From Comamonadaceae bacterium (lineage in GTDB: Bacteria > Pseudomonadota > Gammaproteobacteria > Burkholderiales > Burkholderiaceae_C), in NCBI GenBank assembly GCA_947476015.1, contig CANJOS010000008.1, positions 1 through 40,115 of the forward strand: a DNA stretch of 40,115 bases, given 5' to 3'. The notes beneath the pieces were generated by a model. It was not told the origin of the DNA, did no database searches, and saw nothing but the letters and a program-made list of their open reading frames with translations. This document shows, in pieces, positions 14,191-32,451 of this stretch; position 1 is the first letter of the stretch; the number at the start of each line of letters is the position of its first letter. The position numbers and the translations under genes were made by a program.

Positions 14191-14237
14191 GAATTATCTC
14201 CATCTGATCAATTGATCTGTCGAAGTTCAGGCAACCA

Positions 14238-16537: not shown

Positions 16538-16625
16538 CTTAATGATTCCAGAAAAGTTGAAGATAAATTTGGATAGCAACAGGATCAACCATGGATTTAT
16601 TAAAAGCTTGAAGCTTGATTCTTGA

Positions 16626-16648
16626 TGCCCCCCTAGGGGGGGACTTCC
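16626..16648 (-). promoter_or_regulatory. GC-rich palindrome, copy 3 of a shared motif
   Basis: Read on the minus strand, AGTCCCC is followed by CCCTAGGGGGGCAT; the core CCCCCCTAGGGGGG is a perfect palindrome. It ends 88 bases before the acyl-CoA dehydrogenase start, in the same orientation relative to the gene as copies 1 and 2. A TAATAA -10-like hexamer follows 23 bases later. No T-run follows on either strand, so a terminator is unlikely. Confidence 0.55.
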
Positions 16649-16711
16649 GCAATTCAACCTGATTTGACATTGCGACTTTCATCCATCAGCCTCGTTAGGC
16701 AGAAAGATAAT

Positions 16712-17686: not shown

Positions 17687-18570
17687 GATTTTTTACCAAA
17701 CAAACCGGACGGTTTCACCATCAGGACCAAGGCCATGATCAGAAAAATGACAGTGGTTGAAGCTTGTGGATAAAAAACTTTGGTCATGCCTTCTGCAAGA
17801 CCCAAGGCATAGCCACTGAAAATGGCACCCCCTATCGATCCCATACCACCGATCACCACAACAGCAAAAACCACAATGATGGTGTTGGTTCCCATCGAGG
17901 AACTCACTTGATAAATAGGCGCTGCCATCACTCCAGCAAAGGCAGCCAACAATACGCCAACGCCATAGGTCAGCGTCATCATCCTAGGAACACGGACGCC
18001 AAAAGCTTGAACCAAGGAGGGGTTCTCAGTCGCAGCTCGTAAGTAAGAACCCAGCTTGGTTTTTTCAATCACCAGCCATGTGACCAAACACACCACCACT
18101 GAAACACAAATGACCCACAGACGGTAGTTAGGCAAAAACATAAAGCCCAAATTCCTTCGCCCTTGCAAGGCTTCTGGAATGGCATAGGGCAAACCTGAAA
18201 CACCGAAGCCTTGCCGAAATGCACCTTCAATCAACAAAGCCAAGCCAAAGGTCAGAAGCAAGCCATAAACAGGATCGAGTTTTTTAATCTTTCTCAAAAA
18301 GAACCATTCGATGAACATTCCAGTGAAGGCCACAAGAACAGGCACAACAACCAGTGCGGCCCAATAGTTGAGGTCTAAGAATTTCAAAGCCAACCAAGCA
18401 CAAAAAGCACCCATCATGTATTGGGCGCCATGTGCAAAATTAATCACATTCAAAAGTCCGAAAATAATGGCCAGACCCAAGCTCAACAATGCATAAAAAG
18501 ACCCATTGATGAGCCCAATGAACAATTGACCGTAAAAAGCCTGAGAGGGAATTCCAAAAATTTCAGTCAT
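17683..18570 (-). CDS. ABC transporter permease (LivH-like)
   Basis: A 295-residue inner-membrane permease with LivH segments GLAIIFGLLNVINFAHGAQYM (split near 32-52), LGSYLRAATENPSLVQAFGV and IGGMGSIGGAIFSGYALGL. Six bases after the LivF stop and overlapping the LivM gene by 4 bases, it forms the channel of the second branched-chain-type importer. It is clearly diverged from the LivH-like gene at 7408-8286, so the two importers are not a recent duplication. Confidence 0.92.
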   Translation of the reverse strand: MTEIFGIPSQAFYGQLFIGLINGSFYALLSLGLAIIFGLLNVINFAHGAQYMMGAFCAWLALKFLDLNYWAALVVVPVLVAFTGMFIEWFFLRKIKKLDPVYGLLLTFGLALLIEGAFRQGFGVSGLPYAIPEALQGRRNLGFMFLPNYRLWVICVSVVVCLVTWLVIEKTKLGSYLRAATENPSLVQAFGVRVPRMMTLTYGVGVLLAAFAGVMAAPIYQVSSSMGTNTIIVVFAVVVIGGMGSIGGAIFSGYALGLAEGMTKVFYPQASTTVIFLIMALVLMVKPSGLFGKKS

Positions 18571-18576
18571 GCTGGC

Positions 18577-19299
18577 TCAAACGCTCAAATATTTATCGAT
18601 TTGATCCAAGACTTTCGGATCCTCAATGTCTTTGCGACTGAATTGATCAACCACTGCACCCTGCTCCACTACATAAAAATGATCAGAAATTTGAGATGCA
18701 AAATTAAAATTTTGCTCAACCAGCAAAACCGTAAAGCCCAGTTTTTTCAACTGCTGAATTGCAAAGGCAATTTGTTGAACAATGACGGGAGCCAAACCTT
18801 CTGTAGGTTCATCCAGCAGTAAAAAATGAGCACCTGTTCTCAAAATTCTGGCAATTGCCAACATTTGCTGTTCACCTCCAGACAACTTTGTTCCCTGACT
18901 GTTTCGACGCTCTAGCAAATTGGGGAAAAGCTGGTGAATGGCATCAATGCTCATACCGCCTGGCTTGATGATGGGCGGCAACAGTAAATTTTCATGGACT
19001 GACAAACTGGCAAAAATCCCACGTTCTTCTGGACAGTAAGCAACACCCTTTCTTGCCACTTCATCAGGAGAGTAAGTCACAATGTCATGGCCTTCAAAAT
19101 AAAGATGCCCTGTTCGCTTTCCAACCAACCCCATAATGCTTCTCAAGGTACTGGTTTTACCTGCGCCGTTTCGCCCAATCAAGGTTGCAATTTCACCCTT
19201 ATTAACCGAAAAGTTCATGCCATGCAAAACTTTTGACTCGCCATACCAAGCTTGCAGGTCTCTAACTTCTAGGATAGATGGTGCGTTGGCTGGCGTCAT
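18577..19299 (-). CDS. ABC transporter ATPase (LivF-like)
   Basis: From ATG 19299 this is a 240-residue ATPase with Walker A GRNGAGKT (42-49), the LivF-type CPEERGIFASLSV segment, signature LSGGEQQMLAIAR and Walker B FLLLDEPTEGLAP. AGGTG six bases upstream supports 19299 over a GTG at 19308. The ATG follows the LivG stop by one base, so translation is probably coupled. It powers the second importer with LivG, LivH and LivM. Confidence 0.92.
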   Translation of the reverse strand: MTPANAPSILEVRDLQAWYGESKVLHGMNFSVNKGEIATLIGRNGAGKTSTLRSIMGLVGKRTGHLYFEGHDIVTYSPDEVARKGVAYCPEERGIFASLSVHENLLLPPIIKPGGMSIDAIHQLFPNLLERRNSQGTKLSGGEQQMLAIARILRTGAHFLLLDEPTEGLAPVIVQQIAFAIQQLKKLGFTVLLVEQNFNFASQISDHFYVVEQGAVVDQFSRKDIEDPKVLDQIDKYLSV

Positions 19300-19300
19300 A

Positions 19301-20056
19301 TCAAGCACCTATGTAGGCGGTTCTCACTTGCGGATTTGCAGAGACTTCGATATAGGATCCCTCTGCCAAAATCTGCCCTCGCGCCAAAACCGTAATCCAG
19401 TCAGACAGGTCCTCCACAACTTTCAAATTATGTTCCACCATCAACACCGTTCGACCAACGGCAGCTTCTCTGATCAAAGTCATGATGCGTTCGATGTCTT
19501 CTCGGCCTAGGCCTGCCATCGGTTCATCCAGCAGCATGACTTGAGGATTCAAGGCTAAGGTGGTTGCAAATTCGAGTGCTCTTTTCCTGCCATATGACAG
19601 ATCAGAGGCGGTGTGTGTTCTAAAATCTTGCAAGCCTACTGCAGTAATCAACTCATCCACTTTGTCGCTGAGTCCCTCTAAACATCGGTCTGAACGCCAG
19701 AAGTCATAGTGCAAATTCAGAGGTCTTTGAAGAGCGATGCGAACATTTTCGCGAACACTGAGGTGTCCAAAGGTGGATGAAATTTGGAAAGACCTGACCA
19801 AACCGCGTGTGGCAATGTCCGCAGGGTCATCCCGTGTGATGTCTTTTCCGTTGAAAAATATTTTTCCTGAGGTCACCGTCAGAAAACGTGTCAATAGATT
19901 GAAAACAGTGGACTTGCCAGCGCCATTCGGCCCTATCATGGCATGAATCGAACCGCGCCGAACTTGCAGGTCGACACCTGAGACAGCCTTAAAACCCTGA
20001 AATTCCTTGGTCAAACCAAGGGTTTTAATCACAAATTCATCCGTAACAGACGTCAT
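19301..20056 (-). CDS. ABC transporter ATPase (LivG-like)
   Basis: A 251-residue ATPase with Walker A GPNGAGKST (42-50), RSFQISSTFGHLSVRENV, the degenerate signature LSYGRKRALEFA usual in LivG proteins and Walker B VMLLDEPMAGLG. The start overlaps the stop of the small kinase-partner gene by 4 bases. Kinase-pair and transporter genes therefore share one message, which suggests that import and kinase steps serve the same substrate. Confidence 0.92.
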   Translation of the reverse strand: MTSVTDEFVIKTLGLTKEFQGFKAVSGVDLQVRRGSIHAMIGPNGAGKSTVFNLLTRFLTVTSGKIFFNGKDITRDDPADIATRGLVRSFQISSTFGHLSVRENVRIALQRPLNLHYDFWRSDRCLEGLSDKVDELITAVGLQDFRTHTASDLSYGRKRALEFATTLALNPQVMLLDEPMAGLGREDIERIMTLIREAAVGRTVLMVEHNLKVVEDLSDWITVLARGQILAEGSYIEVSANPQVRTAYIGA

Positions 20057-20583
20057 CGATTTTTCTCAGCAACTTCTACAAAATGAGGCACTTCTTTAGG
20101 CGAAGGATCAAAACCCAAAGGCAAATACCAAGCCCTGTCAAAAGTAATGCGATCGACGCTCATCTCCAAGACCAAAGTTTCGAGTTTTCTGCGAATACTT
20201 TCTTCATACGAAGCGGACTCTCGAATGACTTCACGCACAACGGCGGCAATTTCAAAGGCAGCCAATCGAATCACATTTGATTTCAATTCATGCGATGACA
20301 GAACTGCTGTGCCCGTTTCAATCGAAGACTCTAACAGCGACTTATTTTCTGGTGAGATGATCGCACCAGAATTTTGAATTGCTCTTGCCAAGGCCAAATT
20401 ATCCCGAAGTTCAAATGTTTCGCGGTAACATAAAAAATCAAGACGTCCTCTGACAAACTCTAAGTAATCTACAACCAATTTCAGTTGCTCAGCAGCTAAA
20501 GGATCATTGGGATTGATGGCAGGCGCGACAACATCAGTCAGAGATTTGACAGCGGCACGAAGGCCATTTTCTGTGACATCCAT
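20053..20583 (-). CDS. Small helical kinase-partner protein, paralog 1 (LvaB-like position)
   Basis: A 176-residue, largely helical protein with no signal peptide or membrane segment. It shares with the proteins at 23822-24358 and 29605-30141 an N-terminal block (AVKSLTDVVAPAI, then PLAAEQLKLV, residues 11-38) and a C-terminal block RAWYLPLGFDP (about 150-160); the middle is poorly conserved. It overlaps the stop of the phosphotransferase gene by one base, and its ribosome binding site is inside that gene's last codons, so the two are translationally coupled. In Pseudomonas putida the small LvaB works with kinase LvaA on 4-hydroxyvaleryl-CoA; an equivalent partner role is inferred. A remote link to the DUF6285 group is possible but unverified. 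Confidence 0.75.
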   Translation of the reverse strand: MDVTENGLRAAVKSLTDVVAPAINPNDPLAAEQLKLVVDYLEFVRGRLDFLCYRETFELRDNLALARAIQNSGAIISPENKSLLESSIETGTAVLSSHELKSNVIRLAAFEIAAVVREVIRESASYEESIRRKLETLVLEMSVDRITFDRAWYLPLGFDPSPKEVPHFVEVAEKNR

Positions 20584-21800
20584 TACAAACGCTCCTTTAA
20601 CAAGCGGGCGAGATCCAAGGACACTGCGGGTGCAATACCCTTTACGCGCGTCAGCAAAATATCTTGATGTGATTTACCGAGACGTGCAACGCGATAGGCC
20701 GTGGCCATGGCGGAACACAAAATTTGATAGGAATTTAAAACTTTGTAATAGTAAAGTCGATCAGGATCAACACTCAATCCTGATGCATCCTCGTATCGTT
20801 TATAAAATTCATTCAATGGAACTAGGCCACACACGTAATAAGTTTGACCGTCCTCAGAATAATGACCCATGGTAGTTTGAGTAGTCCAAGCCAAATCTCG
20901 GTGGCGATCACCAATATGCCCTCGCTCCCAATCTAACCATGCGGTCATTTGCCCCGTGGCTTCTTCAAACAGAAAGTTACCGCTTCGATAGTCGCCATGA
21001 ACAATGCTGGCATGGTCTAAGGTGGGTAAATTACGCTCAAGCCAATTAGACGCCACCTCCATGAGCGCGTAGTCCTCACCCCGATCTTCTTCCCAAATTC
21101 GACGGCCACGATTGAGCTGCCAAAGAGCGCTTTGAGTACCTCCAATTTGGGGATGATCCATGGTTGTGAAAACCTTGTCTTCGGTCTTCATGCTGTGAAT
21201 CGTGCCAAGATGTTTGATGAATTGTGGCGCTAATTGTTTTCTCAACTCGGGGCCAAACACAGTTCCCAAACCACTCACCTTGCCTGTGGCGGTAGTTTTA
21301 GGCTTTGTCACGCCATCTGCAAAGGCATAAATCAGGGCAGGTTCTGGAAACCACTCTCCCTTTGGATCTAACCAAAATACACGAGGAACGGGAATGATGC
21401 CTTCAAACAGATTCAACAATTCAAACTCACGGGCTCGACTGGTGGTGTTCGATGACTCCGAAGGGTCCATTCGAATGACCAAGCGGTCGACGCTGGGTCC
21501 ACGCCTTGGATCAATCCAATGCAAGGTAAATCCCATTTGGATTTTGGAAACGCCGCCCGTGAACCAGGATTGATCCCTCACTTGAAAATCACCTTGGATC
21601 TTTTCTTCCAGCATCTTTTGCAGACAGGTTGAAAGTTCTGCCAAGGTGGGCCGTCTGTAAGGGGGACTGCTCCTAAGTCGCATCTTACGAACCAACAACT
21701 CATCCGTTTCCCGCTCGCCTGGGTAACGTCGACTGATGTCTTGAATAAACGCCTCGGACGGATTGTCTCGATTATCGAAATTACCCATTGAACCGAACAT
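20583..21800 (-). CDS. Large phosphotransferase-family kinase, paralog 1
   Basis: A 405-residue APH-fold kinase. It has an N-terminal helical extension (RRYPGERETDELLVRKM, 24-40), a nucleotide loop GGVSKIQ (82-88), VIRMDPSES (108-116), PEPALIYAFADGVTKP (152-167), catalytic HGDYRSGNFLF (268-278, Asp270 and Asn275) and LDWERGHIGDRHRDLAW (289-305, Asp290). Compared with the kinase at 14238-15287 it is about 55 residues longer, has SK instead of SN in the loop, and Met where that enzyme has the Lys of VLRK. It lies between the binding-protein gene and its small partner, inside an ABC transporter operon. The likely role is phosphorylation of an imported hydroxyacid or its CoA ester (inference). 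Confidence 0.83.
   Translation of the reverse strand: MFGSMGNFDNRDNPSEAFIQDISRRYPGERETDELLVRKMRLRSSPPYRRPTLAELSTCLQKMLEEKIQGDFQVRDQSWFTGGVSKIQMGFTLHWIDPRRGPSVDRLVIRMDPSESSNTTSRAREFELLNLFEGIIPVPRVFWLDPKGEWFPEPALIYAFADGVTKPKTTATGKVSGLGTVFGPELRKQLAPQFIKHLGTIHSMKTEDKVFTTMDHPQIGGTQSALWQLNRGRRIWEEDRGEDYALMEVASNWLERNLPTLDHASIVHGDYRSGNFLFEEATGQMTAWLDWERGHIGDRHRDLAWTTQTTMGHYSEDGQTYYVCGLVPLNEFYKRYEDASGLSVDPDRLYYYKVLNSYQILCSAMATAYRVARLGKSHQDILLTRVKGIAPAVSLDLARLLKERL
20592..20597 (-). promoter_or_regulatory. Ribosome binding site inside the kinase gene (coupling, pair 1)
   Basis: AAGGAG on the minus strand lies within the last codons of the kinase gene (Lys-Glu-Arg-Leu-stop), 8 bases before the ATG of the small partner gene at 20583. 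Pairs 2 and 3 have the same arrangement. Confidence 0.6.
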
Positions 21801-21842
21801 ACAAAATCCTCGTCGACTGAAGCAAAAAATTTTTACAAGCGC

Positions 21843-23063
21843 TCAACGTTTGACCAAAGAGCATTCTTCAGGTGAAGCGGGCCTGAAAGCCTTTTCTGCA
21901 GGAATTCTTTGAACCAACTTTAAATAATCCCAAGGTGCCTTGGATTCTTCAGGTCGCTTAACTTCCATCACAAACATATCATGCATATGACGCCCATCAG
22001 CGCGAATGGTTCCGACACCAAATAAGGGATCGTCTGTGCGCAGCTCTTTCATTTTAGAAACCACTTGTGGTCCAACTCGCGTACCCGCAGCAGTGGTGGC
22101 TTTCAAATAATGCAGAACTGAAGCGTAGACACCGGCTTGAACATCTGATGGATAGTCTCCGCCATTTCGTTGCGCAAATCTACGAGCAAAATTGCGCTTT
22201 CCTTCATCAATATCCCAATAGAAAGCGGTTGTAGCTATCAACCCACGAGAAGCTTTGAGCCCTAAGCTATGGATATCGTTGATAAAAATAGCCAGTGCGA
22301 CCAATTTTTGTCCCCCATCGGTAATTCCAAATTCACCCGCTTGCTTTACAGCATTCACAAAATCATTCCCGCCCATGGCCAAGCCTACAATTTTTGCCTT
22401 GGATGCTTGTGCTTGCAATAAGAACGATGAGTAATCTTGAGTGTTAAAGGCCGGTCGGTTACTGCCAATGACCTTGGCACCAGCAGCCAACGCAAATCTA
22501 CTGGCCACGGCCTCCAATCCAAGACCACCCGCATAATCGGCTGTTATGAAAAACCAAGTATCACCGCCGCGTTCAACTGCCGCCGTCGCAGTGTTTCTGC
22601 CCAATGACCAAAGGTCGAAGGTCCAATGGACGGTGTTAGGCGAGCATTCCTTGCCCGTCAATGAATCATGACCACCGCCAGAAACTAAAAATGCAGCATT
22701 GCTGTTTCTGACCAAGAAATTAACGGCCAATGCAACAGCAGAGTTAGGGACATCCACAATGGCACTGACACCCTCGTCCAACCACTTGCGAGTCACGCTC
22801 GAACCAATGTCTGCTTTGTTCTGATGATCGGCAGAGATCACTTCAATTTTAAAGGGCAACCTGCCAGCACTTTTCTCAAAATCTTCAACAGCCATCTGTG
22901 CGGCCACCACAGAGCCTTTGCCACTCCATGCAGAGAACCCACTTTGCATGTCAGTCAACACACCAATTTTCACTGGCGCATTGGACTGAGCAATTCCTGA
23001 GCCCGCAGTGAGGCCTAACAAAGCGAATGAAAGACACCAAGATAAAGCACGCATTTTCTTCAT
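21843..23063 (-). CDS. ABC transporter substrate-binding protein (LivK-like)
   Basis: From ATG 23063 the protein has 406 residues with a Sec signal peptide (MKKMRALSWC..., hydrophobic core, GIA cleavage near residue 25). The mature part starts PVKIGVLTDMQSGFS and is a type I periplasmic binding protein of the amide/branched-chain group. The charged MSF... start blocks of classical LivK are absent, as in receptors for organic acids. AAAGG 7 bases upstream supports the start; the longer frame to 23114 is unsupported. It is separated from its ATPase and permease genes by a kinase pair, which is unusual. Confidence 0.9.
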   Translation of the reverse strand: MKKMRALSWCLSFALLGLTAGSGIAQSNAPVKIGVLTDMQSGFSAWSGKGSVVAAQMAVEDFEKSAGRLPFKIEVISADHQNKADIGSSVTRKWLDEGVSAIVDVPNSAVALAVNFLVRNSNAAFLVSGGGHDSLTGKECSPNTVHWTFDLWSLGRNTATAAVERGGDTWFFITADYAGGLGLEAVASRFALAAGAKVIGSNRPAFNTQDYSSFLLQAQASKAKIVGLAMGGNDFVNAVKQAGEFGITDGGQKLVALAIFINDIHSLGLKASRGLIATTAFYWDIDEGKRNFARRFAQRNGGDYPSDVQAGVYASVLHYLKATTAAGTRVGPQVVSKMKELRTDDPLFGVGTIRADGRHMHDMFVMEVKRPEESKAPWDYLKLVQRIPAEKAFRPASPEECSLVKR

Positions 23064-23193
23064 GATTAAACCTTTCGAATCAATGGACAAATATTCACAA
23101 AATCTAAATCGCATGGAGGGACAAAAAACTTGTACACATCATTACTTTATGCTGAAGAAGTATCGGCTCATACTAGGCAAAACCCTTGAAACA

Positions 23194-23802
23194 TTAGCTT
23201 TCCAATGATCGAAAGTCGGCAAGCGTTTCGTTCAAGCTGTCCAATCGCAAAGCTTCAAATGATTCCCCGCTGAGACGAGTCACTGAACAGTGATTCAAAT
23301 GAAATTTGCCATACCTAATTTCAGACAGCCCCAAAACTGCAGATACGAATGTTTTGGTCGTCACGCCGTGGGTGAAAACAGCAATTCGTTGCCCCTTTTC
23401 ACCTTCAAAGATACGTCGATAGGCACTGTAAACATTCCGCATGAAAACTTCTGGGTCATGACCATAAAATTGGAGGGGTGATGCCATAAATCGGGCCAAG
23501 TTTTCTGCCGATTCCTCTTGACGCATTGTTTCTATAGATCGATATCGATCAGACGGATAGTCAACTTCTGCCAACCCCTCAAATATTTCAATATCCAGAT
23601 TCAATAATTTGGCCAAGGGTGTTGCAGTGTCAATTGCACGCCTTTGTGGGCTAGAAACAATTCGATCGATACCCTCATCGACCAGTTTTTCTGCCAACGA
23701 AAAAGCATGTTGCATGCCTTGTGTATCTAAGGGTGGATCCCCTGGACACAATGAATGATTCTCGTCGGGGCGACCGTGTCGAATGATCAATAAATGTTTC
23801 AT
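23194..23802 (-). CDS. Histidine phosphatase family protein (phosphoglycerate mutase-like)
   Basis: From ATG 23802 the protein has 202 residues with the histidine-phosphatase motif RHGRPDEN (8-15, catalytic His9), SSPQRRAIDTA (50-60, phosphate-binding Arg), proton donor candidate Glu79 in GLAEVDY and the second His145 in FTHG. Such enzymes remove phosphate from small metabolites or proteins. The frame is open to 23832, overlapping the preceding gene by 11 bases, and that longer start cannot be excluded. It directly follows a kinase/partner pair and precedes a transporter gene. It may therefore recycle the phosphorylated intermediate or clear a dead-end product (inference). Confidence 0.87.
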   Translation of the reverse strand: MKHLLIIRHGRPDENHSLCPGDPPLDTQGMQHAFSLAEKLVDEGIDRIVSSPQRRAIDTATPLAKLLNLDIEIFEGLAEVDYPSDRYRSIETMRQEESAENLARFMASPLQFYGHDPEVFMRNVYSAYRRIFEGEKGQRIAVFTHGVTTKTFVSAVLGLSEIRYGKFHLNHCSVTRLSGESFEALRLDSLNETLADFRSLES

Positions 23803-23821
23803 GTTCACTTTAAGCAAAGAA

Positions 23822-24358
23822 TCAACGGTCATTCATTTGGAAGACCTGGTCAATCGGCGGCACCATCTCAGGTTTTGACTCCCATCCCTGTGGCAAAAAC
23901 CAAGCTCTTTGGGCATCCAAAAACGCTTTACTACCTGACAAAATGACCTTTTCAATCCGCTTTCTCAATTCATGGTCCACCGTCGCTGTCGTCCGAACCA
24001 AAGCCGTCAATAGGGCTGCGAGTTTTTGTGAACAAGCTTGCAAGTCAAAGTCTCTTGTTGATGACAATTTTTGGAGTTCACGCGCTTTGGCCAAGGTTTC
24101 ATCTAAAGCAAGTGAAATTGCTGGAGAAACCAAGTTTGCATCGACTTTCACCTGCTCTGACATCTCTATGTAATGACTTAGTTCAAATTGATGACGATCG
24201 TGAGCATATGCATGACGACTCAAAATCAACTGCAGATACTTCGAAACAAGCTTGGTTTGTTCATGCGCCAGAGGATGATTCGGGTCAATGGCGTCATAAA
24301 TCACCTCGTCCAAGGCTCGGATTGCAGCACGCAGTGCGTTATCAGTGTGGTCGGCCAT
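23822..24358 (-). CDS. Small helical kinase-partner protein, paralog 2
   Basis: A 178-residue soluble, mostly helical protein of unknown function, paralogous to 20053-20583. It shows LRAAIRALDEVI and PLAHEQTKLV near the N-terminus and AQRAWFLPQGWESKP near the C-terminus. The start overlaps the kinase stop by one base; GGAGG (24366-24370) inside the kinase's final codons serves as ribosome binding site. The constant pairing with the kinase suggests a complex, as for LvaA/LvaB. The middle third is weakly conserved between the three copies, pointing to old duplications. Confidence 0.75.
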   Translation of the reverse strand: MADHTDNALRAAIRALDEVIYDAIDPNHPLAHEQTKLVSKYLQLILSRHAYAHDRHQFELSHYIEMSEQVKVDANLVSPAISLALDETLAKARELQKLSSTRDFDLQACSQKLAALLTALVRTTATVDHELRKRIEKVILSGSKAFLDAQRAWFLPQGWESKPEMVPPIDQVFQMNDR

Positions 24359-25614
24359 CAGAGACCCTCCTCAAGGATTGCAACTCGCAAGTCTTCGGAA
24401 ATCTGGTAAGCAGCACCTTCAATCCAGGACAACAAAATATCTTGGTGTGAGCGGCCTAACCTCGCCACACGATAGCCGGTTCCCAGAACAGATGCAATCA
24501 GTTGGAAGCTGTTCATGATCCGGTAATAACGAAGCCGTTTAGCATCAACTTTCAAGCCTGAAGCTAATTCATACTGCTCATAAAAATCATCCAAAGGTAC
24601 CAGTCCAGAAACTAAAAATGTCGTCCTGTCCTCATCATAATTTCCAAAAAGCGGCGTGGTAATCCATGCTAAATCGCGGTGACGATCTCCGAGGTATCCT
24701 CGCTCCCAATCCAGCCATGCCGTGATTTTTCCAGTGTCTTCATCAAACAAGAAGTTCCCTGCTCGATAATCCCCGTGCAATACGCTCACAGTGTCAAGCA
24801 GCGGCAGGTTTCGTTCTAGCCAATTACTGGCAATTTCCATGATGGGGAGATCTTCGGCACGGTCTTCTTCCCATATGCGCCTGGCCCTGTTGAGTTGCCA
24901 AAGCGCACTGTCAGAAGTTCCTAGTCTAGGAATATCGAATGCGCTAAAATCTGAACTTGAATAGTCGAACGTGTGAATGGCTGCCAAATGAGCAACAAAT
25001 TGCGGGCCTAAGAGAGGTCTCAATCGAGTTCCGAAGTCATTGCCTACGCCAGAAATCCGGCCCTCCACTGCTTTAGGCTTGGTCACTCCTGTCGCAAATG
25101 CATAAATCAATGAGGGCTCTGGAAACCATTTTCCCTCGGCATCGACCCAATAAACACGGGGCACTGGAAGAGTTTTAGCAAATGCACGAATCAATTGCGA
25201 TTCACGCATTCGACTGGTAGCGTTCAAAGATTCCTGAGGCTCCATTCGAATGACGAGTTCTGTGCTAACTCGCCCTTGCTCAGGGTCATGCCAGTTCAAT
25301 TCAAACGCCAATTGTATTTTTGAACCGCCGCCGGTCATCCAACGCAATCTTGAGACCTCGAAATCCCCTTGGACATGCGCTTTCAGAAAGGCATCTATGT
25401 AAGATGCAAAATCTTTCAAATTTGTTGCAGGTCTTCTTGGGTGGTGGCGATGCTGCATTTTTCGAGTGAGCATCGCATCAAATTCACGCTCCGTAGGAAA
25501 GCGCTCGCGCATAGCCTGAATAAAATCATCTGATGGCGCGTCTCGAACTGAGTGATCAGTCTCGAAAATATTTTGCAGATGAAATAAGCCTGGATCATGG
25601 TTTGGCGTTGTCAT
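24358..25614 (-). CDS. Large phosphotransferase-family kinase, paralog 2
   Basis: A 418-residue APH-fold kinase with RERFPTEREFDAMLTRKM (36-53), loop GGGSKIQ (95-101), VIRMEPQES (121-129), PEPSLIYAFATGVTKP (166-181), catalytic HGDYRAGNFLF (280-290, Asp282, Asn287) and LDWERGYLGDRHRDLAW (301-317). It lies 13 bases after a DHSWG-motif gene and is coupled to the small partner gene. The same three-gene order recurs at 29605-32451 on the other side of the TRAP genes. The conserved EEDR(A/G)ED stretch before the catalytic loop is shared with the other two copies and may help define the substrate site. Confidence 0.83.
   Translation of the reverse strand: MTTPNHDPGLFHLQNIFETDHSVRDAPSDDFIQAMRERFPTEREFDAMLTRKMQHRHHPRRPATNLKDFASYIDAFLKAHVQGDFEVSRLRWMTGGGSKIQLAFELNWHDPEQGRVSTELVIRMEPQESLNATSRMRESQLIRAFAKTLPVPRVYWVDAEGKWFPEPSLIYAFATGVTKPKAVEGRISGVGNDFGTRLRPLLGPQFVAHLAAIHTFDYSSSDFSAFDIPRLGTSDSALWQLNRARRIWEEDRAEDLPIMEIASNWLERNLPLLDTVSVLHGDYRAGNFLFDEDTGKITAWLDWERGYLGDRHRDLAWITTPLFGNYDEDRTTFLVSGLVPLDDFYEQYELASGLKVDAKRLRYYRIMNSFQLIASVLGTGYRVARLGRSHQDILLSWIEGAAYQISEDLRVAILEEGL
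24366..24370 (-). promoter_or_regulatory. Ribosome binding site inside the kinase gene (coupling, pair 2)
   Basis: GGAGG on the minus strand lies in the codons for the kinase's terminal Glu-Glu-Gly-Leu, 7 bases before the ATG of the small partner gene at 24358. Confidence 0.6.
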
Positions 25615-25627
25615 GATAAATGTCTCC

Positions 25628-26632
25628 TTATCCTGTCGTGATTGATGCAGGCCAATCGTTCCAACGTCTTCCTCTTCGTTGGGTCGTCGCTGTAATCGGC
25701 AAGACTTCCATCACAACACCGTAGCCTACTCTGTCACCCAACAGCCATCTCATCAGAGCGGTGTAGCAGGTGGTCGCATAGATATTCCAGGGCGCCCCCA
25801 CATCGGCCATGGCGGACAACTTATAAATCTTACCTCGCACGTCGGTGACCTTGAGTTGCATTGAGGTAATGGTAGAGCCAAGACGCGTACTGGTGATGTC
25901 CAGTTCCATCACACCATATTGAAGTCCATTTTCCAACACATAACCATGCGCTAACTTTTGATCCTGGCCGTTCGGCGCATCCAAATCTACATGCGTAATC
26001 AGGTGGAAAGCTAAATTTTCGTCAAACTGCGCAGAAATTGAATCCATGGGAGGCAACTCAAGCTCGCCTCGTTCCCCCCAACTGTGGTCCATTCGCTCAA
26101 GGGAATTCACCTTGTATTCTTTACCGCGAACTTTAACCACCCCAGTAACACGACCCGTCATATCGAAATGGCCTTTCCAAGCTTTCGAAAGACCAGATTT
26201 CGCAATTTTTTCTTCTTCAGTGCCAACGGCGTGTGGCGTGTGTGCTGGATCATGTACATCAAAAGGGTCCATGATTCCGATCCAATCAACGTGAATTTCG
26301 GTATTGTCATAGCCTACATAATCGATTCGAAATTCTCTGGGTGGCTTGACCGAACGAATTTTTAGCCCTGAAGGTGAATCAATGTTTGAAAATCTTTCAG
26401 GTGCCGGTAAATGAACTTGACTGTCTACATACAACAACTCCGCTCTGTTATCGGTGAGCGAACCAAAGAAGTAAATTTCATTCAGCATGACACCCAAAAC
26501 GGGGCGAGCTGCAACGTAGACCATGACCAGCAAATGTTCTTCCGGAATAGCAATCGGAAAAATATAAGTTTCTGCCCATTTGTAGTTTGCATTAGGCGGG
26601 GTGTGATACTCAAGATCTGCAGCCGTGATCAT
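25628..26632 (-). CDS. DHSWG-motif protein of unknown function (DUF7064/AttH-CrtC-like), paralog 1
   Basis: A 334-residue protein without signal peptide. It has an N-terminal WAETYIFPIAIPEEHL block (19-34), a central GHFDMTG...VRGKEYKV section, the motif ERMDHSWGER (179-188) and many alternating beta-strand segments. DHSWG-type motifs in beta-rich proteins recall the AttH/CrtC-like (hydroxyneurosporene synthase) fold, which hydrates double bonds or binds lipophilic ligands; I place it there tentatively. It is closest to the protein at 31444-32451 and more distant from 35078-36064. A start-proximal AAGGAG supports the ATG. It lies 13 bases before a kinase gene and 45 bases after the TRAP operon. 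Confidence 0.7.
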   Translation of the reverse strand: MITAADLEYHTPPNANYKWAETYIFPIAIPEEHLLVMVYVAARPVLGVMLNEIYFFGSLTDNRAELLYVDSQVHLPAPERFSNIDSPSGLKIRSVKPPREFRIDYVGYDNTEIHVDWIGIMDPFDVHDPAHTPHAVGTEEEKIAKSGLSKAWKGHFDMTGRVTGVVKVRGKEYKVNSLERMDHSWGERGELELPPMDSISAQFDENLAFHLITHVDLDAPNGQDQKLAHGYVLENGLQYGVMELDITSTRLGSTITSMQLKVTDVRGKIYKLSAMADVGAPWNIYATTCYTALMRWLLGDRVGYGVVMEVLPITATTQRRGRRWNDWPASITTG

Positions 26633-26677
26633 GAAACTCCTTTATATGACCAAGAAAATTAAATATTCTGATTGAGC

Positions 26678-27955
26678 TCACATCAACCATTTGTAGGGAA
26701 TCATGAGCAAATCAGGAAAGATGATCAATAGAAATAGAACAACTATTTGTGCAACGAGAAATGGCCAACTGCCTCGTACCATGTCACCCATAGAAATCTT
26801 TGATACACCACTTAGAATATTCAGAACAATACCTACCGGCGGCGTGATCAAACCAATCGCGTTGTTCATGATAAACAACACGCCAAAATAAACGGGATCA
26901 ATACCAGCCTGCTTCACAATAGGCATCAGAACCGGTGTCAGAATCATCAAAGTTGGCGCAAAATCAAGCGCAGTCCCAATGATGACAACCAAAACCATCA
27001 TGAGGAACATCAAAAGCCGGGGACTGCTCATGAAGGGCTCCAAGATGGAAGCAATTTGCTGAGGGATTGCAGAAGTTGTAATTAACCAAGCAGAGACCAA
27101 GGCTGCAGCGATCAGAAAAACAATCACAGATGTTGTTTTAGCGGAAGCAACCAACAAGGGATAAAGATCCTTGAAGGAAAGCTCTCGGTAAATGTACATG
27201 CCTACAAACATGGCATAAGCGCAAGAAGCAACTGCGGCTTCAGTTGGGGTGAAAATACCGGCCTTCATACCACCTACGATGCCAAATGGCATGATCAAAC
27301 CCCAAAGTGAAGATCTGAATGTTTTCAGAATTTCAGCAACACTCTTTTGAGGTAAGAGATCGAATTTTTCATTTCGAACCACCCACATCCATGCAATTAC
27401 CAAGGACAATCCCATTAGAAGTCCAGGAAAAATGGTGGCCATGAATAATTTGCCAATGGACACATTGGCAATCACACCAAACACAATGAAAGCAACCGAA
27501 GGCGGCATACAAGGGGCAATCACACTGCCAGCTGCAATCAAACCTGCAGAACGCGGAACGTCGTATCCTGCATTGCGCATCATAGGAATCAAAATACTAC
27601 CAAGCGCTGCTGCATCTGCCGCAGCTGAGCCTGAGATAGCTGCCATCACAATGGATGCGAAAATTGCAACCAAACCCAAACCACCACGGATGTGTCCGAC
27701 GAGGGCCAGAGCAAAGTTAACAATATGCTTGGATATTCCTCCCTTGTTCATCAATTCGCCAGCAAAGATAAAGAAGGGTATGGCGAGCAAAGGGTAACTG
27801 TCTGCCCCTTCAATGAGTTTTTGTGAAAGCAATGTGGTATCAAATGAACCTTGTAAAAACATCAATGACAAGGCGCAAACGATCAAGGCAAATGCAATAG
27901 GCATTCCAAGTGCCATCGCCCCCATTAATGAAACTAAAAAAACGAGTACCGTCAT
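26678..27955 (-). CDS. TRAP transporter large permease (DctM-like)
   Basis: A 425-residue, highly hydrophobic membrane protein of the DctM group, which forms the ion-driven channel. Family blocks include GMPIAFALIVCALSL near residue 17, SYPLLAIPFFIFAGELMNKGG (around 53-73), SGSAAADAAALGSILIPMM and NNAIGLITPPVGIVLNI. It overlaps the DctQ gene by 4 bases and ends the TRAP set of receptor, small and large permease. TRAP systems import organic acids without ATP. The two flanking kinase modules suggest that the cargo feeds the kinases. Confidence 0.93.
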   Translation of the reverse strand: MTVLVFLVSLMGAMALGMPIAFALIVCALSLMFLQGSFDTTLLSQKLIEGADSYPLLAIPFFIFAGELMNKGGISKHIVNFALALVGHIRGGLGLVAIFASIVMAAISGSAAADAAALGSILIPMMRNAGYDVPRSAGLIAAGSVIAPCMPPSVAFIVFGVIANVSIGKLFMATIFPGLLMGLSLVIAWMWVVRNEKFDLLPQKSVAEILKTFRSSLWGLIMPFGIVGGMKAGIFTPTEAAVASCAYAMFVGMYIYRELSFKDLYPLLVASAKTTSVIVFLIAAALVSAWLITTSAIPQQIASILEPFMSSPRLLMFLMMVLVVIIGTALDFAPTLMILTPVLMPIVKQAGIDPVYFGVLFIMNNAIGLITPPVGIVLNILSGVSKISMGDMVRGSWPFLVAQIVVLFLLIIFPDLLMIPYKWLM

Positions 27956-28497
27956 GGTGCCGGACCTTTTGAATGCACATTTGGCATTGGTTGTGAAGTT
28001 TCGAAAAATAATTCTGAATCAGGTAATTTCCTAGAAAGCAACCTAATTAAATGAATCACTGTGAGCAATCCAATACCAATACTCACCACATAGCCAACTC
28101 CGTACAACCAAATCATGGGCATCCCAACGACCATGGACAGCGTAGAAGCGCTGACCTCGTGCTGGCGCCAAGTACCCATAAAAATAAGAGCGCAACACAC
28201 AATAACAATCAAATCACTCAAAAATGCACAAAAAATACGTCCCTGTCTAGGCAAGGATGCAACCAACGAATCCACATTCAAATGTGATCGATCACGTGTC
28301 GCAATCACAGCGCCTAAGAAAACGATCCATACGAAAAAAGTTCGGGAAAGCTCCTCAGATGCAGAAATACCTGTCCCAAATCCGTAACGAAGGATGACGT
28401 TCAGCAAAACTAGGCAGAGCATGCTTGCAAGTAAGAATGCCAAAATGCCCTCCGAAATACGAAAGAAAATAGCCTCGAATCGTTGAAATGTTTTCAT
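27952..28497 (-). CDS. TRAP transporter small permease (DctQ-like)
   Basis: A 181-residue protein with four predicted membrane helices. It has the DctQ features EELSRTFFVWIVFLGA (44-59) and RDRSHLNVDSLV (67-78), which precede the third helix. It bridges receptor and large permease in TRAP transporters. The gene starts 52 bases after the receptor gene and overlaps dctM by 4 bases. Confidence 0.9.
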   Translation of the reverse strand: MKTFQRFEAIFFRISEGILAFLLASMLCLVLLNVILRYGFGTGISASEELSRTFFVWIVFLGAVIATRDRSHLNVDSLVASLPRQGRIFCAFLSDLIVIVCCALIFMGTWRQHEVSASTLSMVVGMPMIWLYGVGYVVSIGIGLLTVIHLIRLLSRKLPDSELFFETSQPMPNVHSKGPAP

Positions 28498-28549
28498 GTT
28501 TGATTCCAGTTCAGATTCAGGGCTATTTCAAAGCAACTTAAAGAGATAT

Positions 28550-29563
28550 TTACTTTCCAGCGACAGATTTCACATCATTGTTAAGTGCCGTCATCATGTC
28601 CGCACCAATTGCAGGAAGCGCTTTTTCATAGACTGGCTTGATGGCATCCCGCATGCGAGCAAATTCAGCAGGACTGATCGCATTTACCAACATGCCTTTG
28701 GCTTTCAAACGACCAATACCCTCTTCCGCCTGTTGGCGATTGAGTTGACGTTGGGCCAAACGCTCAGTGAATGAACAATCGCGAAGAGCAGATTGCTCAG
28801 CTGGTGAAAGTTTGTCAAACAGTTGCTTCGAGTAAATCACGATACCGGGGTTGTACATGTGTCGAGTCAGACTCAAATATTTCTGAACTTCATGGAATTT
28901 CACCGCTTCAATCACTGGCACAGGATTTTCTTGACCATCAACAGTTTTGGTTTCTAGTGCTGAATACACTTCTGTGAAGGGCATCGGAACTGCAAAACCA
29001 CCCAAGGCTTTGAATGTTTCCACCATCATGGGATTGGGAATAACGCGAAATTTCAAACCTCGCATATCTTCCATTTTGGTGATAGGAAGCTTTGAATTGG
29101 TGGCATTTCGAAATCCATTTTCCCAATAGGCTAGCGTGACCATGCCTTGGGTTTCCAGACGTTGCGCCAAAATTTCGCCAGCCTTACCGTCCATGGCGGC
29201 GTCTGCTTCCTTTTCGTTAGCAAAAACAAAAGGAAGGTCAAAAGCGGCTGCAGCAGGCACCATAGTCGACATAAAGGAGGTCACGGTGACCACCATGTCC
29301 AAGGTGCCGGAACGCAATTGCTGAATGGTAGGACCATCATTTCCCAATGAGCCATCGAAGAATGGCTGAATTTTCAGCCTGCCCCCCGATTTTTGGGCAA
29401 CACACTGAGACACCTTGGTCAACGCAACACCCAGCGAATGCTCTTTTGAAATATTGACTGATGCGCGAATGGTTCTCTCTTGAAACTGTGCATTCGCATT
29501 CAGAGTTAAAATTGAAGCGCCCAATACGATCGCTTTCAAACCTTGAGAATAAATTTTCTTCAT
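28550..29563 (-). CDS. TRAP transporter substrate-binding protein (DctP-like)
   Basis: A 337-residue periplasmic receptor with a Sec signal peptide (MKKIYSQGLKAIVLGASILT, cleavage after NANA near residue 25). Family features include SGGRLKIQPFFDGSLGND (59-76), the DLPFVFANEKEAD segment, MEDMRGLKFRVIPNPMM, in which the Arg usually binds the ligand carboxylate, and FTEVYSALETKTVDGQENP. A strong AAAGGAG precedes the ATG by 5 bases. It follows the small kinase partner by 41 bases. The ligand is a carboxylate by family; its identity is unknown. Confidence 0.92.
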   Translation of the reverse strand: MKKIYSQGLKAIVLGASILTLNANAQFQERTIRASVNISKEHSLGVALTKVSQCVAQKSGGRLKIQPFFDGSLGNDGPTIQQLRSGTLDMVVTVTSFMSTMVPAAAAFDLPFVFANEKEADAAMDGKAGEILAQRLETQGMVTLAYWENGFRNATNSKLPITKMEDMRGLKFRVIPNPMMVETFKALGGFAVPMPFTEVYSALETKTVDGQENPVPVIEAVKFHEVQKYLSLTRHMYNPGIVIYSKQLFDKLSPAEQSALRDCSFTERLAQRQLNRQQAEEGIGRLKAKGMLVNAISPAEFARMRDAIKPVYEKALPAIGADMMTALNNDVKSVAGK

Positions 29564-29604
29564 GATGTCTCCTTTAAGTGTTGTGAAAAAATACCAAATG
29601 AAAT

Positions 29605-30141
29605 TTAAATATCAGGACAGCGTTCAAACCATTGATTCAAACTCGGCAATGCATCGGGTTTAGCCTCAAAGCCAAGAGGCAAAAACCAACTGCGCTTCAG
29701 CGCTAAAATTTCGCCAGATTTTTCTAGAACTTTTGACGACAAAGTTTCAAATAGTTCAAAATTTTGATAAGCACAAGAGCGCAATAGCTGGCTGACAGAA
29801 CCCAGGATATTGCTGGTATGGTCCCGCCACTTTGAAGCAGGCGATCCTGTTATCTTCAAATCGCGCGATGCGAGCAATAGCATCCTATTTAAGTTTTTGA
29901 TCATGGGATCAGTTGAGTGAAAACAAGCACAAACAGCATGGCCCAACTCAACGTTCAAATTGAGCTCAGTCCAATCAAGTTTGCGTGACAGGTCACGTTG
30001 GCTTAAATAGAACTCAAGAAACATGCTGACCAATCGCAATTGCTCAACGGCCAAGGGGTTCGATCGATCGACAGCAGGTGCCACCACTTCATTAAGCGCT
30101 TTGATAGCGGCAGAGAAACCGTTTTCACTTGGATCAGGCAT
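29605..30141 (-). CDS. Small helical kinase-partner protein, paralog 3
   Basis: From ATG 30141 the protein has 178 residues: FSAAIKALNEVVAPAV and PLAVEQLRLV near the N-terminus and LKRSWFLPLGFEAKP near the C-terminus, matching the partners at 20053 and 23822. The frame is open to 30234, but GGGAG at 30148-30152 and the paralog alignment favour 30141, giving an 8-base overlap with the kinase stop. The middle has little in common with the other copies. Function unknown; a partner of the adjacent kinase is the best guess. Confidence 0.75.
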   Translation of the reverse strand: MPDPSENGFSAAIKALNEVVAPAVDRSNPLAVEQLRLVSMFLEFYLSQRDLSRKLDWTELNLNVELGHAVCACFHSTDPMIKNLNRMLLLASRDLKITGSPASKWRDHTSNILGSVSQLLRSCAYQNFELFETLSSKVLEKSGEILALKRSWFLPLGFEAKPDALPSLNQWFERCPDI

Positions 30142-31408
30142 GATGTGCTCCCTGAAGAATTGGCTTTTTGCTAGACACAACACCTGCCAAAGCAAGGCGA
30201 AGTTCTTCCAACAACACATAAGCTGCAGCTTCAATTCTTGATAGCAAAATATCTTGGTGTGATTTTTTCAAACGAACCACTCGATAACTTGTCCCCAAAA
30301 CAGTGACGGCTTGCTGGAATCTGCTCAGAATGGTGTAGAAGTGAAGTTTTCCCAGATCAACTTTCAAACTTGAAACCCGTTCATACTCATCAATAAATTC
30401 TTCAAGAGGAAAGAACCCGCAAATCAATAAATCATTTCCAGATTCATCGTAGTGGCCAATCGCCTCAGATGTAGCCCAGGCCAAGTCTCGATGTCGATCA
30501 CCAATGGTGCACCGCTCCCAATCTAAAATTGCCGTGATTTTTTCTGTACCGGGGTCGAAAAGAAAATTACCGCTTCGATAGTCACCATGGATCAGACTGG
30601 CATGGTCCAGTTCAGGCAGGTGGCGCGTTAACCATATTCGCGCAATATCGAGTAACGGTATGTCATGCGCCCTGTCCTCTTCCCAGCCTCGCAAAGCACG
30701 GTTGAGTTGCCACATGGCAGATTCTGTCGATCTTAGATTTGGACGATCAAAACTGGTCAAATCACAGCGACTGTGATCAAAGTTGTGCACTTTTGCCAAG
30801 CACTCAATGAATTGCGAACCTAAGGTACGGCGGGCTTTGGGACCAAAATTTATTCCCAGTCCAGTGACGCGCTGATTCGAGAAGTTGGTGGGCTTGGCAA
30901 TCCCTGAACTGAAGCTGTAAATCAGGGCAGGCTCAGGAAACCACTCGCCATCGCGGTCGACCCAATACATTTCCGGCACGGGTATGACCTTTGCCAATGC
31001 ATCAATAATTTGTCCTTCCCTCAATCGACTTGAAGGGTTCAAAGACTCTGCAGGCTCCATTCGCAACACTAAGTCTCGCTGAAAGTGTCCTTTTAGAGGT
31101 TGCTCTGTGGCTAAAGTGAATTTCATCTGTAATTTGGAGCCACCGCCTCCCAGCCACGAGGCATTTGAGACTTCATACGCGTAGCGAAGTTTTGACTTCA
31201 ACATCGCGTTGATGTAACCCACCAAATCATCAATACTTTGCATTTTGAAGGGGCCGTTTGCCCTTCGATGCATTCGTCTTGTAAAGGCCCAATCAATTTC
31301 TTTTTCAGTAGGATATTGACTGCGCATCACCTCAATGAAATCTGGGCTAGGCTTATCGCGGTCCACAACGCCATCTGAAGTGACTGATGAAGGCAAGAAT
31401 GAAGTCAT
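30134..31408 (-). CDS. Large phosphotransferase-family kinase, paralog 3
   Basis: A 424-residue APH-fold kinase with RSQYPTEKEIDWAFTRRM (29-46), loop GGGSKLQ (88-94), VLRMEPAES (114-122), PEPALIYSFSSGIAKP (158-173), catalytic HGDYRSGNFLF (274-284, Asp276, Asn281) and LDWERCTIGDRHRDLAW (295-311). It lies 35 bases after a DHSWG-motif gene. Catalytic Asp, Asn and metal-binding Asp are all present, so all three large kinases look active. The divergent loop and N-terminal extension separate them from the kinase of the acyl-CoA dehydrogenase operon. Confidence 0.83.
   Translation of the reverse strand: MTSFLPSSVTSDGVVDRDKPSPDFIEVMRSQYPTEKEIDWAFTRRMHRRANGPFKMQSIDDLVGYINAMLKSKLRYAYEVSNASWLGGGGSKLQMKFTLATEQPLKGHFQRDLVLRMEPAESLNPSSRLREGQIIDALAKVIPVPEMYWVDRDGEWFPEPALIYSFSSGIAKPTNFSNQRVTGLGINFGPKARRTLGSQFIECLAKVHNFDHSRCDLTSFDRPNLRSTESAMWQLNRALRGWEEDRAHDIPLLDIARIWLTRHLPELDHASLIHGDYRSGNFLFDPGTEKITAILDWERCTIGDRHRDLAWATSEAIGHYDESGNDLLICGFFPLEEFIDEYERVSSLKVDLGKLHFYTILSRFQQAVTVLGTSYRVVRLKKSHQDILLSRIEAAAYVLLEELRLALAGVVSSKKPILQGAHHA
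30148..30152 (-). promoter_or_regulatory. Ribosome binding site inside the kinase gene (coupling, pair 3)
   Basis: GGGAG on the minus strand within the last codons of the kinase gene, 6 bases before the ATG of the small partner at 30141; it decides that start over the longer open frame. Confidence 0.55.
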
Positions 31409-31443: not shown

Positions 31444-32451
31444 TTAGCCAGTAAACAGAGATCGATAGCCTTCGGTCCATCGACGTCCATGCCGTTTTGA
31501 CAGGGCAGGCAATCCCATGGTTTCCATCACGCACCCGTGACCAATTCGATCCTTGTAGATCCAACGCATCATGCTGGTGTAAGTCACAGTGGCCGCATAA
31601 GCATTCCAGGGCGCTCCAATTTCCGAGTAGGCATACATCTGAAATTGTTTATCTCGGACGTCTGTCAATTGAATGTCCATGGCCGTAACAACATTGCCCA
31701 GACGGGTTGTTTCCAGCTTGCAGTCTTTGATGCCGTAGACTTTTCCATCTTCCAATATGTAAGCATGGGCTAGTTTTTGATCAGAACCTGTAGGCGCATC
31801 CAAATCCAAATGTGTGATCAAATGCAGTGCAAGATCTTCGCCAAAACTTGCAGAAATGGAATCCTGAGCGTTCATCACAATCGGGTTGCGAAATCCCCAA
31901 CTGTGATCCATCCTTTCTACGCAATTAACCTTGTATTCTTGACCTCGAATTTTCACGGTCCCCCTGACTTGCCCCGTTAAGTCAAAATGACCGCCCCATG
32001 CAGCACCCAAACCAGAACCTGCGTGTTGTTCTGCCTGAGTTTTTGCAGCTTTAGGACTGTGATTGGGATCATGTATATCGAAAGGGTCCATCAAACCAAT
32101 CCAATCTACATGAATTTCTGTGTCGTCGTAGCCCACGTAATCAATCCGATAATCTCTCGGCGCATTCACCGCTTGAACAGACAAGCCCATAGGCGATCGT
32201 ATGTCTGAAAATTTGGCGGGAGCTGGCAGATGAGGTTCTACATGGAAGTAAACCAAATCACTTCGGTTCTGCGAAAGCGAACCATAAATGGCAATGTCAT
32301 TGACCATCACACCGATGCCTGGCCTGACGACCACATAAACGGTGATCATCAGACGTTCTTCTGGGATGATGATGGGGAAAAAATACGTTTCAGCCCATGT
32401 ATGCCCAGCGTTAGGTGGTGTGTGAAACTCCAAATCTTGCGCGGTGATCAT
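31444..32451 (-). CDS. DHSWG-motif protein of unknown function (DUF7064/AttH-CrtC-like), paralog 2
   Basis: A 335-residue protein clearly paralogous to 25628-26632 along its length: MITAQDLEFHTPPNAGHTWAE at the start (split), DYVGYDDTEIHVDWIGLMDPFD, ERMDHSWGFR and a C-terminal RWIYKDRIGHGCVME. There is no signal peptide or membrane helix. The start overlaps the ligase stop by 4 bases, and the kinase follows 35 bases later, so ligase, this protein, kinase and partner form one translational unit. Either an enzyme acting on a CoA ester or a ligand-binding protein is possible; the fold assignment is tentative. Confidence 0.7.
   Translation of the reverse strand: MITAQDLEFHTPPNAGHTWAETYFFPIIIPEERLMITVYVVVRPGIGVMVNDIAIYGSLSQNRSDLVYFHVEPHLPAPAKFSDIRSPMGLSVQAVNAPRDYRIDYVGYDDTEIHVDWIGLMDPFDIHDPNHSPKAAKTQAEQHAGSGLGAAWGGHFDLTGQVRGTVKIRGQEYKVNCVERMDHSWGFRNPIVMNAQDSISASFGEDLALHLITHLDLDAPTGSDQKLAHAYILEDGKVYGIKDCKLETTRLGNVVTAMDIQLTDVRDKQFQMYAYSEIGAPWNAYAATVTYTSMMRWIYKDRIGHGCVMETMGLPALSKRHGRRWTEGYRSLFTG

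Follow-up and report, generated by a model that had tools for sequence, protein, structure and literature searches.

A 40,115-nucleotide stretch of DNA from a Comamonadaceae bacterium (GenBank assembly GCA_947476015.1, contig CANJOS010000008.1, positions 1 to 40,115; hereafter the window) carries three pairs of genes, each encoding a kinase of the aminoglycoside phosphotransferase (APH) fold and a small partner protein, together with three genes for proteins containing the domains of unknown function DUF7064 and DUF7065, one per pair. They belong to a run of 24 genes (11678-36064) that lies entirely on the minus strand. Neighboring genes in it are never more than 135 bp apart and often overlap, a spacing that suggests a single transcription unit. 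In addition to these nine cassette genes, the run includes genes for a histidine phosphatase, two acyl-CoA ligases, tripartite ATP-independent periplasmic (TRAP) and branched-chain-type ATP-binding cassette (ABC) importers, a LysR regulator, an acyl-CoA dehydrogenase (ACAD), a kinase of the ACAD10/11 type and a short-chain dehydrogenase/reductase (SDR). The DUF7064/DUF7065 proteins are called lyases a, b and c for the function argued for below. The cassette genes, followed by the phosphatase gene, are:

20583..21800, minus strand: kinase 1, APH fold, 405 aa (Pfam APH, E 2.4e-20)
20053..20583, minus strand: partner 1, 176 aa; 1-base overlap with the kinase 1 stop codon
24358..25614, minus strand: kinase 2, APH fold, 418 aa (Pfam APH, E 1.5e-21)
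23822..24358, minus strand: partner 2, 178 aa; 1-base overlap with the kinase 2 stop codon
30134..31408, minus strand: kinase 3, APH fold, 424 aa (Pfam APH, E 6.5e-26)
29605..30141, minus strand: partner 3, 178 aa; 8-base overlap with the kinase 3 stop codon
25628..26632, minus strand: lyase a, DUF7064/DUF7065 protein, probable phospho-alcohol lyase (DUF7065 E 3.4e-9, DUF7064 E 2.9e-8); 13 bp upstream of kinase 2
31444..32451, minus strand: lyase b, DUF7064/DUF7065 protein, probable phospho-alcohol lyase (DUF7065 E 5e-7); 35 bp upstream of kinase 3
35078..36064, minus strand: lyase c, DUF7064/DUF7065 protein (Pfam), probable phospho-alcohol lyase, matched to kinase 1
23194..23832, minus strand: histidine phosphatase (His_Phos_1, E 6.1e-32); 11 bp overlap with partner 2

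All three kinases match PF01636 and contain the catalytic HxDxxxGN and DWE motifs of APH-fold kinases. A preliminary description of the window had reported such kinases of 405-424 residues at 20583, 24358 and 30134, each with a partner of 176-178 residues overlapping its stop by 1, 1 and 8 bases, and the DNA and Pfam matches bear this out. Purine-rich, ribosome-binding-like sites were likewise read within the last kinase codons of the three pairs, where that description had placed them (the mechanically called reading frame of partner 3 begins further upstream, at a TTG). Kinases 2 and 3 are 55% and 45% identical to kinase 1; relative to partner 1, identity is 29% for partner 2 and 31% for partner 3. 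Kinase 2 has only remote relatives among solved kinases (3ats, E 2.2e-11; 9o56, 4.3e-10; 3dxp, 1.4e-9; 9fsg, 2.5e-8; ACAD11, 1.6e-6), and a profile of the three kinases ranks them in the same order. In contrast, the kinase at 14238 (349 aa) matches ACAD11 with an E-value of 1.9e-65, in keeping with its earlier classification as a shorter, ordinary ACAD10/11-type kinase.

The association of kinase and partner is conserved. Searching the GTDB species genomes with the kinase returned 20 loci, including ones from Paracoccus, Variovorax, Xenophilus, Hydrogenophaga, Rhodococcus and Nocardia. The partner gene comes next after the kinase gene in 18 of them, and in the remaining two (L023 and L025, of the same kinase clade) the kinase gene is broken by frameshift or truncation, so the pairing is not due to chance. 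When the window, these 20 loci and 20 more found with the partner were taken together (41 stretches), 44 of 45 partner genes adjoined a kinase gene on the same strand (45 of 46 before removal of the duplicate L026/L138; a partner cut by the contig end in L021 was not counted), and in the lone exception another called gene lies between the two. Of the resulting 44 pairs, 18 were found via the kinase, 23 via the partner and three come from the window. The order is kinase then partner in 43, and the genes overlap in 36, mostly by 1 or 4 bases, although individual overlaps may be off because start codons in the fetched loci were picked by a codon-usage script. No kinase-partner fusion was found among the 44 pairs, and among the matches listed (120 of 251 and 120 of 1486) homologues have the lengths of single proteins. 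Had the pair been found mostly apart in other genomes, the coupling proposed in the preliminary description would have been in doubt; the neighborhood survey showed the opposite.

The kinases that carry a partner also form a group of their own. A quick maximum-likelihood tree was built from 61 kinases after removal of one duplicate and two truncated ones; four of its rows are long-branched. In it, 42 partner-linked kinases constitute one clade with an SH-aLRT support of 99. This clade excludes nine kinases fused to a DUF6285 domain, which form a separate clade (SH-aLRT 99), three kinases adjacent to a DUF6285 gene and the ACAD10/11-type kinases, in a tree that does not contain LvaA itself. Within it, kinase 1 groups with kinases from Paracoccus, Methylobacteriaceae, Rhodococcus and Nocardia, while the sub-clades of the other two window kinases comprise Hydrogenophaga and Xenophilus in one case and Variovorax and Xenophilus in the other. 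The three window kinases thus belong to separate sub-clades whose other members come from different genera, and so did not arise by recent local duplication. The earlier suggestion of a kinase system that parallels LvaA but has diverged from it, with three separate lineages and a small partner closely linked to the kinase, holds.

The preliminary description was right about the kinase and partner of each module but omitted the histidine phosphatase and the DUF7064/DUF7065 protein that goes with each pair. The curated Pfam cut-off for DUF7065 is passed by all three of these proteins and that for DUF7064 by two, lyase b scoring 23.9 against a threshold of 24.7. A structural model of lyase a (pLDDT 92.1) gave a 25-phosphosteroid lyase (25-PSL; 9g4c) as its top Foldseek match, with an E-value of 6.2e-13, and the gene for this protein of predicted 25-PSL fold adjoins a kinase gene. 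The fold class retrieved also includes a hydratase and Diels-Alderases, and at the sequence level no PDB entry, 25-PSL included, was matched at E <=1 with either a single sequence or a 20-row profile. Residues E21, H155, R169, D182, S184, W185, G186, R188, D264 and R266 of lyase a are conserved. Based on the model, the DUF7064/DUF7065 protein is likely to be a phosphate-eliminating enzyme, and its resemblance to 25-PSL suggests that the cassette most likely dehydrates alcohols.

A DUF7064 gene was present in the examined stretch for 34 of the 44 pairs and absent from it for 10. On the same strand and within 6 kb, it accompanies 18/18 kinase-found pairs, 9/23 partner-found pairs and 3/3 window pairs, indicating that the three-gene form is universal in the closer clade only. 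Pairwise distances, not corrected for common ancestry, correlate between kinase and partner (0.66 for 42 pairs; permutation maximum 0.24) and between kinase and lyase (0.45 for 28 sets with different lyases; permutation maximum 0.17). At L130 and L188, a DUF7064 protein is encoded on either side of the kinase-partner pair.

Lyases a and b sit directly upstream of kinases 2 and 3, while lyase c is some 13 kb from kinase 1. Lyases c, a and b have their closest relatives in cassettes of the same groups as those of kinases 1, 2 and 3, respectively. For example, the L011, L007, L008 and L014 cassettes contain the lyases closest to lyase c (60-62%), and L007, L008 and L011 also supply three of the four kinases nearest to kinase 1. 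In Paracoccus, moreover, the genes are ordered ABC binding protein, lyase, kinase, partner, LivG, LivF, LivH and LivM, which is the order of the first module of the window but with the lyase in place. On these two grounds, lyase c most likely pairs with kinase 1 despite the separation. The nearest relatives of partners 1 and 2 also track the kinase groups, whereas those of partner 3 (31-33%) lie elsewhere.

From gene content, linkage, clades and predicted folds we infer a set of enzymatic steps, and on balance we favor the view that each module is an ATP-dependent alcohol-dehydration cassette in which kinase and partner phosphorylate and the DUF7064/DUF7065 protein eliminates phosphate. The kinase, together with its helical partner, would use ATP to phosphorylate a hydroxyl group on a compound that has been imported or activated with CoA, with the overlapping stop and start codons keeping synthesis of the partner in step with that of the kinase. 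The DUF7064/DUF7065 protein would then expel the phosphate to leave an alkene, which could enter a beta-oxidation-like catabolism. The three modules, which share their run with two acyl-CoA ligases and the ABC and TRAP importers, may serve three substrate ranges. The general logic put forward earlier, phosphorylation of a hydroxyl followed by loss of the phosphate, is supported, although the likely eliminating enzyme differs from the one first envisaged.

An AlphaFold2 model of partner 2 is all-helical (pLDDT 96.9). No Pfam domain was found in partner homologues among the matches listed (120 of 251), and PHROGs gave no match for the partners. Conceivably the partner works on its own, as an enzyme or regulator that is coupled to the kinase in translation only and is no subunit of it: the nearly invariant residues E33, Q34, R151 and W153 could be catalytic, and the partners diverge faster than the kinases (29-31% versus 45-55% identity). 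However, the near-constant adjacency described above, the restriction of carriers to one kinase clade, the correlated distances and the presence of DUF6285 in the same place in related cassettes all argue against this explanation, and we consider it unlikely. Most likely, the partner is a subunit of the kinase that would aid its folding, activation or substrate docking.

A second alternative follows the logic of the LvaA/LvaB system of Pseudomonas putida, as the preliminary description did. Here, kinase and partner would phosphorylate a hydroxyacyl-CoA, an ACAD would eliminate the phosphate and the DUF7064 protein would be an accessory. LvaB, the small companion of LvaA, we take to be a member of the DUF6285 family. 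None of the three window partners and none of 108 partner-family members matched DUF6285 in Pfam, and a profile comparison by hhalign returned a probability of about 0.1% in both directions, with 0.2% for a reversed control. An apparent likeness of the N-terminal helices, noticed by eye, did not stand up to this comparison, the hhalign score being no better than that of the reversed-column control. Identity of the partner with DUF6285/LvaB is thus rejected at the sequence and profile level.

Position, on the other hand, does link the two families. In three genomes (G272, G831 and G150; cassettes at L193:2911-7894, L194:4328-7003 and L195:4711-8543), one or two DUF7064 genes are followed on the same strand by a divergent kinase gene and then by a standalone DUF6285 gene, the order seen in the window. 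A Nocardia genome (G839; L196:4222-6346) has a DUF7064 gene and then a kinase gene, with no small companion found. DUF7064 proteins therefore accompany kinases with the new partner, with DUF6285 or with no companion at all. At two further DUF6285 loci, a kinase gene is present and no DUF7064 gene lies within the 8-9 kb examined. In larger stretches, the kinases of L165 and L168 are seen to be adjoined by DUF6285. APH kinases with DUF6285 fused to their C-terminus, in frames of about 475 aa, occur in several genomes of the family to which G150 belongs (L032, L068-L084). Because DUF6285 similarity is undetectable, yet DUF6285 occupies the place of the partner in three cassettes, we read the partner as an analogue of LvaB and not LvaB itself, so that the earlier comparison holds for position and fails for Pfam and profile similarity.

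As a description of the window, the Lva-type scheme appears improbable. It gains from the presence of acyl-CoA ligases and an ACAD in the same run, from the DUF6285 arrangements just described and from the precedent itself, for which a pull-down of LvaB with LvaA (PMC6692424) and a 4-phosphohydroxypentanoyl-CoA product (PMC11342911) are reported. But the kinase clades are separate, the partner is not DUF6285, and the ACAD of the window is generic (E 7.3e-29 for the best ACAD11 chain versus 7.8e-49 for its best match) and already has an ACAD10/11-type kinase next to it. An LvaA/LvaB system with ACAD-dependent elimination, as originally proposed, is therefore not upheld, the likely eliminator being the DUF7064/DUF7065 protein.

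Phosphatases of three Pfam families occur beside cassettes: His_Phos_1 (the window and L024), SurE (L011 and L017) and Y_phosphatase3 (two plasmids). Among 513 proteins from the 41 stretches, in which the window was represented by its nine cassette proteins only, phosphatase queries matched only in L011, L017 and L024. In the dehydration scheme, the phosphatase accompanying this minority of cassettes probably removes dead-end phosphoesters. That imported alcohols are instead phosphorylated for trapping or protection, transformed by the DUF7064 protein as an isomerase, hydratase or cyclase and finally freed of phosphate by a phosphatase would suit the three unrelated phosphatase families, the importers beside many cassettes and the hydratase and Diels-Alderases in the lyase fold class, but we give it little credence since most cassettes lack any phosphatase looked for and Foldseek ranks a phosphate lyase first.

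The remaining genes of the run, which confirm the linkage to ABC and TRAP import noted previously, are:

32448..34007, minus strand: AMP-forming acyl-CoA ligase (Pfam AMP-binding); 4 bp overlap with lyase b
26678..29563, minus strand: TRAP importer genes; the binding protein (28550-29563) is DctP by Pfam
27952-28497 and 26678-27955, minus strand: TRAP membrane subunits, named by sequence and position
21843..23114, minus strand: branched-chain-type ABC binding protein (Peripla_BP_6, E 3.8e-94)
16712..20056, minus strand: branched-chain-type ABC ATPases and permeases LivG, F, H and M (Pfam); the first gene overlaps partner 1 by 4 bp
11678..16657, minus strand: ACAD, ACAD10/11-type kinase, second acyl-CoA ligase and SDR, which close the co-directional run
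34143..35069, minus strand: LysR regulator (Pfam), between lyase c and the acyl-CoA ligase

No RNA families or tRNAs were found in the window. Importer genes adjoin many of the cassettes elsewhere as well. Some cassettes are adjoined by a second APH protein with an ecdysteroid-kinase-like match (L190:11757-12842, L125:10549-11742 and L126:5056-6228) and others by luciferase-like flavin oxidoreductase genes (L128, L133 and L186).

The distribution of the partner is patchy. It was not found in any of the 59 relatives searched, 35 of them congeners. A search of 369 genomes of the class added two genomes, and in one family 11 of the 36 genomes searched have it. Among 398 genomes of the phylum there was no credible further case, two weak matches (L038 and L039; E 1e-4 and 5e-4) with no kinase or lyase within 3 kb being dismissed as chance. 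It is also located on catabolic plasmids. A tblastn search with kinase 2 matched seven plasmid records, one of which, a second Sphingopyxis macrogoltabida record, was left out. In each of the other six (Rhodococcus ruber, R. opacus, R. aetherivorans, S. macrogoltabida, Sphingomonas sp. MM-1 and Novosphingobium resinovorum), the one stretch examined around the match contains kinase, partner and DUF7064 genes, those for DUF7064 lying about 5 kb away on the opposite strand in N. resinovorum. Partner 2 as a tblastn query matched a single plasmid record, while a profile detected the partner in all six stretches, indicating that single-sequence searches miss it. In the four plasmid records with gene tables, partner and adjacent lyase are annotated as hypothetical proteins. 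The cassette on the conjugative plasmid pISP1 of Sphingomonas sp. MM-1 (L189) lies about 5-6 kb from linA and linX and is accompanied by MmgE/PrpD and Zn-alcohol dehydrogenase genes.

The window itself has a GC content of 0.478, below the range of 0.488-0.536 spanned by 14 other contig stretches from this assembly, and its tetranucleotide profile falls outside their range (0.15-0.19 versus 0.08-0.14). Such a shift is consistent with an island gained by horizontal transfer, but the assembly is 79% complete and the contig may be misbinned. Another contig of the assembly encodes, near its start, a fourth DUF7064/DUF7065 protein (L175:521-1537), with a regulator-like gene and Liv, acyl-CoA ligase and ACAD-like genes nearby. 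Its presence mildly favors a resident system.

We would extend the dehydration scheme only tentatively, at somewhat less than even confidence: DUF7064/DUF7065 proteins, perhaps including the Rv3169 family, may be phospho-alcohol lyases whose kinases gained small companions repeatedly (the new all-helical family and DUF6285), forming a widespread, modular and often plasmid-borne alcohol-to-alkene route beyond sterols, which in the window would comprise three modules that each act on a different substrate or on a different hydroxyl of the same compound. Alcohol dehydration by a separate kinase and lyase has been described for anaerobic sterol degradation. If our reading is correct, the reaction is far more widespread, occurring in environmental Proteobacteria and Actinomycetes. 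It would also give DUF7064 and DUF7065 a function, account for many proteins annotated as "aminoglycoside phosphotransferase" that are unrelated to antibiotics, and add a kinase companion family without a Pfam entry.

A literature search on alcohol kinases and phosphate lyases returned no report of this cassette, and none of the papers found named DUF7064, DUF7065 or the entries 9fsg, 9ft5, 9fu5 or 9o56; one paper from 2024 on naming 25-PSL was found. Solved entries named 25-phosphosteroid lyase have a release year of 2026.

Several known systems resemble the window in part. The solved kinase 3ats, presumably Rv3168, is the best solved match to kinase 2, and the NCBIfam model for Rv3169 gives weak matches to two of the DUF7064 proteins in the window (19 bits against a cut-off of 150). 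In Mycobacterium tuberculosis, according to the available text of PMC5340868, this kinase and an Rv3169-family protein form the Rv3168-Rv3169 operon; unlike in the window, no small partner between them is mentioned there. The two-gene form of Nocardia (G839) resembles this arrangement. In Pseudomonas citronellolis, the accessible part of PMC6692424 places a histidine phosphatase beside an lvaA homologue, which recalls the kinase with a phosphatase neighbor in the window, but the kinase is of the LvaA type, no lvaB homologue is reported for the region and the new partner goes unmentioned. LvaA, LvaB and LvaC of P. putida and ACAD10/ACAD11 share with the window an APH-fold kinase, a small companion (LvaB) and phosphate elimination. 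LvaB is a 12 kDa protein that binds LvaA in a pull-down, and the product of LvaA is 4-phosphohydroxypentanoyl-CoA (PMC6692424 and PMC11342911). The window differs in having another kinase clade and a companion of 176-178 aa unrelated to DUF6285 by profile, and its ACAD is not close to ACAD11.

The 25-hydroxysteroid kinase (25-HSK) of Sterolibacterium denitrificans transfers phosphate to the tertiary hydroxyl at C25 of steroids, and the phosphoester is converted to a subterminal alkene by a separate phosphate-eliminating lyase (PMC8449060, PMC7411048 and PMC11061730). The kinase also acts on primary 26-hydroxysteroids, giving phosphoesters that are no pathway intermediates, and in 2021 the lyase gene had not been identified, with no candidate near the 25-HSK gene (PMC8449060). 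The solved kinase 9fsg (379 aa), which matches kinase 2 at 2.5e-8, may be 25-HSK, an identity that comes from neighboring entry codes only. Differences from the window are the lack of a nearby lyase candidate, the absence of any mention of a small partner in the available text of these papers, the lack of a lyase sequence match and the absence of a molybdenum hydroxylase family among the window proteins scanned. What the two share is a separate kinase and a phosphate-eliminating lyase that, by the model, is of the same fold class. The 25-hydroxysteroid kinase/lyase pair is thus the nearest known chemistry to that proposed for the cassette, and LvaA/LvaB is the nearest kinase-companion analogue.

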